This document shows, in pieces, positions 24,535-26,101 of a stretch of DNA of 64,000 bases. Under the pieces are notes generated by a model, which was not told the origin of the DNA, did no database searches, and saw only the letters and a list, made by a program, of their open reading frames with translations. A program made the translations under genes and the position numbers. Positions within the stretch are counted from its first letter, which is position 1; every line of letters starts with the position of its first letter. The stretch lies in contig NZ_JACHIG010000014.1 in the NCBI RefSeq assembly GCF_014203095.1, positions 1 through 64,000 of the forward strand. The letters run 5' to 3'. The DNA comes from Prosthecobacter vanneervenii. GTDB taxonomy: Bacteria > Verrucomicrobiota > Verrucomicrobiia > Verrucomicrobiales > Verrucomicrobiaceae.

Positions 24535-24729
24535 ATGAGTCGCTATGCCAGCAATCAGGATGTGGTTCGCTTCTTTGCCATGCATGGCATCGAGGTGAGC
24601 CACGTCAGGCGTGAAGGGAGCCTGCGCCATCTGCGGGTGCAGGAGAAGGCGGTGACGCTGCCGATGGATGCCGACCCGGATGAGTGCCTGCGGATCGTGC
24701 GGGAGAGCATCGAGGATGCGGAGGCCTGA
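24535..24729 (+). CDS. Short hypothetical protein
   Basis: A 64-residue protein starting 9 bp after the TPM gene stop, so probably cotranscribed. The sequence has charged helices and a DADPDECLRIV tail, with no domain I recognise. It is probably real because of its spacing and plausible composition. The first attC-like site begins 71 bp after its stop. Confidence 0.45.
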   Translation: MSRYASNQDVVRFFAMHGIEVSHVRREGSLRHLRVQEKAVTLPMDADPDECLRIVRESIEDAEA

Positions 24730-24800
24730 GCCGCCTGTCGCGACGGGTTAGTGAGAATTGTGGGGGAGACGATGAGCCAGATTGGCCAGACATCTGTGTG

Positions 24801-24900
24801 GCCTAACCAGTCGCCAGAGCCAACCACCGTTGGCGCTTTCACTCTCATTGTTGCGGTTCACGTCGCGAGTTGGCGGGTGGCGAAGCTTTTTCAGTTAGGC
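24801..24900 (+). repeat. attC-like recombination site 1
   Basis: Starts with GCCTAAC (RYYYAAC box, 24801-24807) and ends with GTTAGGC (GTTRRRY core site, 24894-24900), exact inverted 7-mers 100 bp apart. Inside, TCGCCA-GA-GCCAAC inverts to GTTGGC-GGG-TGGCGA, an imperfect palindrome with extrahelical bases as expected of an integron attC folded as a hairpin. The orientation is that of a cassette end reading left to right. No integrase gene is in the window. Confidence 0.6.
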
Positions 24901-25364
24901 CACACTACGTGCGACTTATGAGCGAGAACGAATATATTTCAGAACTGCGAGCGAGGTGGCCTCGTGGTTGGTCTTCCGACCAACCCAATTTCGAGGCGAC
25001 GCCAGAGACAATCGCACTTGCTGACGAGGCTGTTCGCGAATTTCCTGACTCACCGAAGCTCTGGTGTATGAGGGGCGACCTCATTCAGCTCGCATCTGAG
25101 TCTTGTCCGCACTCACTCGATGATGTGCTTGCATGCTACCAGCGTGCTACTGAGATTGATCCACAGTTTGTAGAGGCGTGGGAGTCGATGGGCCATTTTC
25201 ATAGCGCCGTGCTCGACGACGAGCATACAGCACAAAGATTTTTCAATGAGGCCGAGAGATTGAGTGGGCACCATGTGGCCTAACCTTGTGTTGCAGCTAA
25301 CCCGGCGGGAGTTTCGCAGTGGCAATCGTTGAGTCCCGTGCGTCGGCTCAGTGAGCATGGGGTG
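24895..25364 (+). mobile_element. Candidate integron gene cassette (470 bp)
   Basis: Bounded by the G^TTAGGC cut points of two attC-like sites. It holds one ORF starting 18 bp into the cassette and ending inside the next attC, which is the standard cassette layout. Two attC sites without an integrase nearby is a CALIN arrangement. Base composition is lower in G+C than in the neighbours. Confirmation needs structural attC detection. Confidence 0.55.
24918..25283 (+). CDS. Helical-repeat (TPR-like) hypothetical protein in cassette
   Basis: A 121-residue protein starting at ATG 24918; a start at 24870 would lie inside attC1. It contains degenerate TPR-like helices such as ALADEAVREFPDSPKLWCMRGDL and ACYQRATEIDPQFVEAWESMGHF, roughly residues 30-110. 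Such proteins usually mediate protein contacts, and no partner is visible. The TAA stop lies within the GCCTAAC box of attC2, as is typical for integron cassette genes. Confidence 0.65.
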   Translation: MSENEYISELRARWPRGWSSDQPNFEATPETIALADEAVREFPDSPKLWCMRGDLIQLASESCPHSLDDVLACYQRATEIDPQFVEAWESMGHFHSAVLDDEHTAQRFFNEAERLSGHHVA

Positions 25365-25370
25365 TTAGGC
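25278..25370 (+). repeat. attC-like recombination site 2
   Basis: GCCTAAC (25278-25284) and GTTAGGC (25364-25370) bound a 93-bp region, again an exact inverted 7-mer pair in cassette orientation. The inner arms pair less well than in site 1; CCGGCGGGA roughly opposes TCCCGTGCGTCGG. The left box overlaps the stop codon of the cassette gene. Confidence 0.55.
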
Positions 25371-25540
25371 TGCTCCGCGCAGGTTAGTCTATGGCGTCAA
25401 CATTATTGAGCTGGGACATCAGAGCATGTCCCAACTTTTTCAGCTTTGGCTGTCGTTTGGTGTGTGCAAGTGCAAGAGACGTTGCCGAGGATCGCGACCC
25501 TGAACTTTTTTTGAGAGGGAGGTGCGGATGATTTGCTGAG

Positions 25541-26101
25541 CTACATCAGGCTCAGGAAGGCCTCGCGGACTTGGGCCTGCCATTTGCTGAAGTAGGCGAG
25601 GCGTGCCTGGAGTATCTGGAGGTCTGACAGGGCCGTGGTGTCTCCGGAGCTGAGGCGGGAGTCGAGGTCGGGCAGGGTGGTGAGGAGCTGGGTGCGCTGC
25701 TCATCGACGGTGGTGCCGAGGGCTTCGAGCTGATCGCGCAACTGCATCTCCTGAGGAGCCAAGAGCGCTTTGGCCAGGGCGGAAGCGGCGGACTGACGGC
25801 GCTTGAGGAAGGAAGCTACGTTTTGCAGCGCGGGTCCGAGCTGGCTGAAGAGGGACATCATGCCCTCGTCGATGGGCACGGTGCACCAGGGCACCTCGTG
25901 GAGCTCCAGCAGGTGCTTGAGGCGTTTCTCGGGGGCCTGCAGTGTTTCGTAGGCTGAATTGATTTCAGCAGCGCGGGCGGCATCGCCACCGGGCTGGTCG
26001 GGGTGGGCGCTGCGGCTGGCCGCCAGCCAGGCCTGCTGGAGGGCTTCGTCGTCCAGTGCGGCGGCGCGCGGCAGGCCTAGGAGGGCAAAGGCGTTTGGCA
26101 T
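25541..26101 (-). CDS. hscB: HscB-like J-domain co-chaperone
   Basis: A 186-residue protein with an N-terminal J-domain carrying HPD at 33-35, followed by a helical C-terminal domain as in HscB, which delivers IscU to the Hsp70 HscA. It directly follows the IscA-like gene (8-bp gap), which supports Fe-S assembly over a general DnaJ role. The sequence is divergent from proteobacterial HscB, and neither HscA nor IscU is in the window. Confidence 0.65.
   Translation of the reverse strand: MPNAFALLGLPRAAALDDEALQQAWLAASRSAHPDQPGGDAARAAEINSAYETLQAPEKRLKHLLELHEVPWCTVPIDEGMMSLFSQLGPALQNVASFLKRRQSAASALAKALLAPQEMQLRDQLEALGTTVDEQRTQLLTTLPDLDSRLSSGDTTALSDLQILQARLAYFSKWQAQVREAFLSLM

Follow-up and report, generated by a model that had tools for sequence, protein, structure and literature searches.

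Clusters of attC sites lacking integron integrases (CALINs) consist of at least two attC sites close together, with an open reading frame (ORF) between them and no integron integrase gene (intI) nearby. Passages of PMC9024848 and PMC8618304 give the two-site threshold and propose off-target insertion, loss of intI and rearrangement as origins of these elements. Cassettes can also be inserted at chromosomal attG sites, as published by Loot et al. 2024 (Nat Microbiol) and cited in parts of PMC12444791, PMC12901181 and PMC11641012. The first of these reports that CALINs of Xanthomonas sit at recurring loci, and for attG insertion it refers to experiments in E. coli. Verrucomicrobiota is named among the phyla with integrons in a passage of PMC8618304, and the 11 taxon-specific attC models of Ghaly et al. 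2021, as presented in the relevant part of PMC8352920, do not include it. What these models have in common with our sites is attC sequence linked to taxon or habitat. Our literature search for Prosthecobacter and integrons found, among the titles returned, none on integrons of this genus.

Here we describe a locus of Prosthecobacter vanneervenii in a 64,000-nt stretch of DNA (the window, to which plain coordinates refer). It holds two clustered attC sites with a cassette ORF, in a genome with no integrase over the model cut-off. In this it resembles a CALIN, from which it differs by having two sites, against a published average of almost 6, and by flanking cassettes that seem truncated. The element is a real, minimal, integrase-less cassette fragment of an already known kind. 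We consider it very probable that the element is an ectopic piece of a cassette array, a minimal CALIN, lodged between core genes of a Prosthecobacter-like chromosome.

Box pairs and site structure

The original prediction of two exact box pairs in one orientation was borne out by a pattern search of the window, which found GCCTAAC...GTTAGGC at 24801-24900 (100 bp) and at 25278-25370 (93 bp), both on the + strand and with starts 477 bp apart. With a spacer of 70-95 nt, the window contains no further pair, and the pattern occurs in 0/100 dinucleotide shuffles of it. The whole 6.66 Mb genome has the same two pairs only, the reversed-pattern control giving one per strand. The left and right boxes of each site are exactly complementary and fit RYYYAAC...GTTRRRY, the consensus of the R'' and R' boxes of attC sites. 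A chance origin of the boxes was considered and rejected, and Rfam at gathering thresholds matched nothing in the window. Over 68 genomes of the family the box pattern also strikes unrelated sequence, for example at 7 places in one genome (G019), none of which matches our attC models R1 or R2 at E <= 0.001. Exact-box searches of 30 loci failed on most sites, and relaxed boxes returned mainly noise. Since the box pattern alone is insufficient, the case for attC rests on structure models.

Five family sites have interiors like those of the window, four resembling site 2 and one site 1. The four site-2-like sites, all from outside the window, were aligned (A5) and given a hand-set structure to make model R1, which contains no window sequence: an R stem of 7 bp, a 5/7 spacer and an L stem of 3 + 5 + 6 bp, with positions 16 and 22 unpaired. 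With filters off, R1 recovered site 2 in the window (R'' 25278-25284, R' 25364-25370, + strand, the 93-bp subtype) at 52.5 bits (E 1.5e-9), and its next match was site 1 (R'' 24801-24807, R' 24894-24900, + strand), at 23.7 bits (E 0.005). Model R2, derived from a 61-site alignment collected with R1 and excluding the window sites, gave site 2 a score of 56.8 bits with 17/21 pairs kept. For the subtype of site 1, whose relatives measure about 99 bp, model R3 was made from a MAFFT alignment (A7) of nine outside sites, with the structure drawn from those sites; it recovered site 1 with a score of 75.4 bits and a genome-wide E value of 6.4e-17, keeping 19/22 pairs. The prediction that both pairs are attC sites, and would be matched by attC covariance models, is thus upheld by models built in this analysis from outside sequences only.

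The alignments themselves carry signs of a conserved structure. In the 61-site alignment, which was fitted to the model and so leans towards the structure, 88.1% of pair cells are kept against 81.9% in shuffles, and 15/21 pairs show changes on both sides against 7.7; slid registers retain 19-38% of the cells. In A7, 93.9% of pair cells are kept against 86.5% in shuffles and the covariation score is reached by 0/500 shuffles, with 4 pairs changed on both sides against 2.8 (127/500 shuffles reach 4). Compensatory change is clear for the structure of site 2 and only partial for that of site 1. PMC11641012 defines attC, in the passage used here, by an unpaired central spacer between L and R boxes and by 2-3 extrahelical bases. 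Both window sites follow the attC plan: R boxes, a 5/7 spacer and an L stem in which some bases are extrahelical (the models leave positions 16 and 22 or 23 unpaired). The L stems of both contain mismatches. RNAalifold on a mixed alignment of 10 sites returned little beyond the R stem (4 further pairs), since the two subtypes fall out of register when aligned together. In single-strand folding, site 1 exceeded shuffles on both strands (bottom z -2.96, top z -3.78, the top being slightly better) and the bottom strand of site 2 did not (z +0.65, 153/200 shuffles as good; top z +0.47), so that there is no sign of the expected bottom-strand bias.

The same site types in integrons and arrays

We obtained 20 intI loci from the family and scanned 16 of them with R2. 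Eight (L092, L093, L094, L098, L099, L102, L103 and L106) have R2 sites at E <= 1e-3, 14 in all, and every one of the 14 lies on the 5' side of intI and points away from it, which is the canonical integron layout. Six of these sites belong to the R2 training set, which affects their finding and not their direction. The other 8 scanned loci have no R2 site at this threshold. The four remaining intI loci and four others with IntI matches (L113-L116) were searched with R1 only, with a single match at E <= 0.1 (L116, E 0.016). L116 itself (G018:C30:21694-22209) is an integron-integrase match below cut-off with an internal TAG, perhaps a case of integrase decay; the attC-model matches of this genome are on contig C8.

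Among the loci with R2 sites are chromosomal integrons of the same genus (for example L092/G028, L098/G026 and L102/G024). Like the window sites, their sites match R1 and R2; unlike the window, they have intI beside the array, and some of their sites are 124-127 bp long. In L092 (G028:C1:44000-58147), intI is on the minus strand, and beyond it the plus strand bears four or more attC-like sites, the last of them close to where the contig ends. One L092 cassette and that of the window share their first 16 bases; the window protein has no match in L092.

The subtypes also occur in arrays of other bacteria, several of them dense. At E <= 0.01, one 6.2 kb contig (L248) has 10 sites and L221 has 8 on the plus strand. 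Both window subtypes are present in L246, L221 and L194, and site 1 is 75-81% identical to sites in L246, L221, L230, L109 and L270. At the edge of a small array, an open reading frame is followed immediately by a 77-bp attC-model match (L109:13899-13975, G021:C674), which may mark a further truncated cassette. The exact 93-bp-type pattern was found in at least 116 stretches of titled genomes. Among the matches listed, 52 of 80 titles are verrucomicrobial and 28 are not (Planctomycetota, Gemmatimonadota, Acidobacteria, Cyanobacteria, Proteobacteria and others); many are metagenome-assembled genomes (MAGs), and some placements may be binning errors. A plasmid search with both attC types gave no match.

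These distributions bear on the reading of the boxes as some other dispersed repeat, a REP- or MITE-like hairpin resembling attC. Such a repeat would also be scattered, often solitary and conserved in its interior, as the sites are. Yet the same sites form head-to-tail arrays, the 10 of L248 all being on one strand, and in half of the scanned intI loci they take the integron arrangement described above. The two subtypes, moreover, have the same two unpaired stem positions in common. We therefore hold a hairpin repeat to be very improbable.

An insertion between two core genes

The sites lie between two genes conserved in relatives. On the left, at 24535-24729 (+ strand), a gene for a protein of 64 aa (small64) is matched by tblastn in 8 of the 29 loci examined in relatives, at identities of 64-76%. 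On the right, at 25541-26101 (- strand), a gene for a J-domain protein (Pfam DnaJ, 29.3 bits) is matched in 46 of the 56 genomes searched, its own included. The 29 loci are those obtained from relatives with the J-domain gene: small64 adjoins it in 8, and 21 are without small64 within the stretch covered. We measured the spacer in 7 of the 8, leaving out one that runs to a contig end (L010). It is 2, 3, 3, 3, 12, 12 and 34 bp long, against 811 bp in the window genome. The segment between the two genes is thus an insertion relative to the 7 measured relatives. That close strains might carry the boxes as ordinary fixed sequence had been named as grounds for refutation; the same neighbours without the insert in 7/7 relatives speak instead for gene gain or loss. 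G+C is 54-56% over the insert and 58-68% in windows outside it.

A single complete cassette can be delimited within the insert. The attC crossover point is the G|TT of the right box, and between the two crossover points inferred from the box positions the cassette would span 24895-25364 (+ strand). Its ORF (24918-25283, + strand; 121 aa from ATG) ends in a TAA (25281-25283) that falls within the left box of site 2, confirming the predicted position of the stop. The protein matches Pfam TPR_17 (29.1 bits, cut-off 24.4) and TPR_14 (26.5 bits, cut-off 23.5), and its relatives, in a search of 96 genomes, are TPR-region matches only, present in 4 other genomes at 29-38% identity. It has no relative in the genome-contig collection, in a search sensitive to close relatives only, and no plasmid match, PHROG or PADLOC family. 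To judge by its sequence, the cassette gene is a TPR-like orphan. The cassette start, GTTAGGCCACA, pairs over 11 bp with its own R'' flank and over 12 bp with that of the previous site. In a weak test on 24 cassettes, the mean pairing, out of 16, was 7.9 for the own end, 7.1 for the previous site and 7.0 for the next junction, which is no clear sign that cassettes follow the rule of pairing with their own end.

Sequence remains on both sides of this cassette. The left junction zone is at 24711-24747, BLAST matches with relatives stopping at about 24705-24710; with no very close strain in the comparison, junction bases are placed approximately only. An open frame, LSRLSRRVSENCGGDDEPDWPDICVA*, runs from 24726 to 24806 (+ strand), with its stop in the left box of site 1, and the roughly 50 bp that precede site 1 inside the insert lie in it. 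This frame is probably the 3' remnant of a truncated upstream cassette; its peptide has no convincing homologue among the 339 loci compared. On the right, about 170 bp absent from the relatives' spacer follow site 2 (25365-25540, + strand; delimited from sequence, repeat search, translation and spacer lengths). After R', an ATG 21 bp on opens a 46-aa ORF (25391-25531). Our search found no convincing homologue of its peptide either, and the segment is possibly the 5' part of the next cassette. Each remnant stops at a core gene. Just 3' of site 2, at 25409-25436, there is a terminator-like stem-loop, AGCTGGGACAT/ATGTCCCAACT, followed by T5 (25409-25443 overall).

The original prediction of a CALIN array stands as regards the attC sites, the cassette between them and the lack of an integrase, and needs correction in its extent: the insert probably comprises one complete cassette and two fragments, with truncated edges. 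In order, it would thus hold the tail of one cassette, including its attC, then a whole cassette ending in an attC of its own and, perhaps, the head of a third.

The short spacer of the relatives and the core genes on both sides would also suit a different origin, in which an integrase inserted circular cassettes straight into the chromosome, the target being an attG-type site within the spacer or the 3' end of the left gene, and no array ever existed here. The left gene is indeed 4-10 codons shorter here (64 aa) than in the 7 measured relatives (68-74 aa). Like the ectopic attG cassettes of Loot et al. 2024, the window cassette lies between core genes and away from integrons. Unlike them, it has extra sequence on both sides and offers no demonstrable clean junction at a G|TT target: a clean insertion should give way to empty-site sequence from the TT of the right box of site 2, where some 170 bp are extra, as are some 50 bp before site 1. 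Because the edges look like truncated cassettes, we favour an array fragment over a clean insertion of two cassettes, and regard attG insertion as possible, though unlikely.

No integrase over cut-off and a second site in the genome

In line with the predicted lack of an integrase, the integron integrase model TIGR02249 has no match over its cut-off of 265 in the 97.31%-complete genome, and none near the locus. The two best frames each match in two pieces, with 79.1 plus 48 bits in one and 76.6 plus 39.4 bits in the other, and leave model positions about 175-234 unmatched. The locus is thus not a complete integron, which would have intI and attI. It might be the relic of one, with intI once at this very position, a reading to which the truncated edges, if they are such, would be congenial and which the presence of intI over cut-off in 24/68 genomes of the family makes conceivable. 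Against it stand the lack of any integrase match near the locus or over cut-off in the genome, and the almost abutting neighbours in the 7 measured relatives, in none of which the locus has room for intI. We thus judge a degraded integron improbable.

An array fragment could have come about as follows. An IntI tyrosine recombinase, from an ancestor or acting in trans from an incoming integron of the kind found in those 24 genomes, would have bound the folded bottom strand of attC and cleaved the right box at G|TT, with the cassettes moving in circular form. The element would then have come to lie between the core genes either by insertion into a target outside integrons or through relocation of a piece of array, and erosion would have trimmed both edges. 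Today the element would be immobile unless an IntI arrives. The arrival route, the past mobility and the truncation of the neighbours are what we infer from the present state of the locus.

The suggested search for further attC sites elsewhere in the genome yielded one. It lies at C9:50689-50796 (L298:1501-1608) and has an R2 E value of 7.9e-6, the other matches listed having E 0.32 or worse. It stands between two orphan ORFs of 195 and 151 aa (L298:901-1488 and 1623-2078), without Pfam or PADLOC matches, which themselves sit between two genes conserved in relatives. The relatives carry other sequence there, and we claim no clean empty site at a spot that is variable among them.

Scattered sites across the family

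At E <= 0.001, R2 finds 122 sites in 47/68 family genomes; 75 of them are in 29 genomes without an IntI match at 1e-40, and for 11 there is an IntI match on the same contig no more than 20 kb away, counts that reflect many fragmented MAGs, strict filters and models that each detect mainly one attC subtype. The corresponding R1 counts are 71 sites in 39/68 genomes, with 46 in 23 genomes without IntI and 5 near an IntI match. We rely on R2 because R1 misses sites near intI and site 1. Most R2 sites (91/122) lack an R2 neighbour within 4 kb, which would also suit attG insertion; site 1 is in neither list, so that site 2 is itself counted as solitary. One single-contig genome of 8 Mb (G070; L142-L146) has 8 R2 sites, of which 3 are grouped within 4 kb of one another, and lacks any IntI match at 1e-40. 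In an order-wide sample, R2 sites at E <= 1e-4 are present in 37/112 genomes.

The surroundings of R2 matches speak for cassettes. For the best 66 of 83 R2 matches, and ORFs of at least 60 aa, an ORF ends between -40 and +15 of the left box at 50 sites, against 24 on the opposite strand and 16% of random positions. An ORF starts within 90 bp after the site at 41, against 15 on the opposite strand and 26% of random positions. The high opposite-strand value for ORF ends is perhaps due to the boxes holding TAA on both strands.

Our results place cassette-type genes with attC in the chromosomes of Verrucomicrobiaceae, a group outside the 11 taxa modelled in the part of PMC8352920 considered here, and in a genome without a detectable integrase. 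The scattered sites of the family, which we see as the part most worth following, form a natural data set on whether attG-type insertion of cassettes occurs in nature. Tentatively, the chromosomes of this family may serve as a cassette platform, in which IntI acting in trans would seed solitary attC-tagged genes at ordinary loci throughout the genome, to persist there long after the integrase is lost, although we would not yet call this the likelier course. If it were true, cassette flow in the family would be largely uncoupled from integrons, and the locus in the window and that on C9 would be two relics of it.
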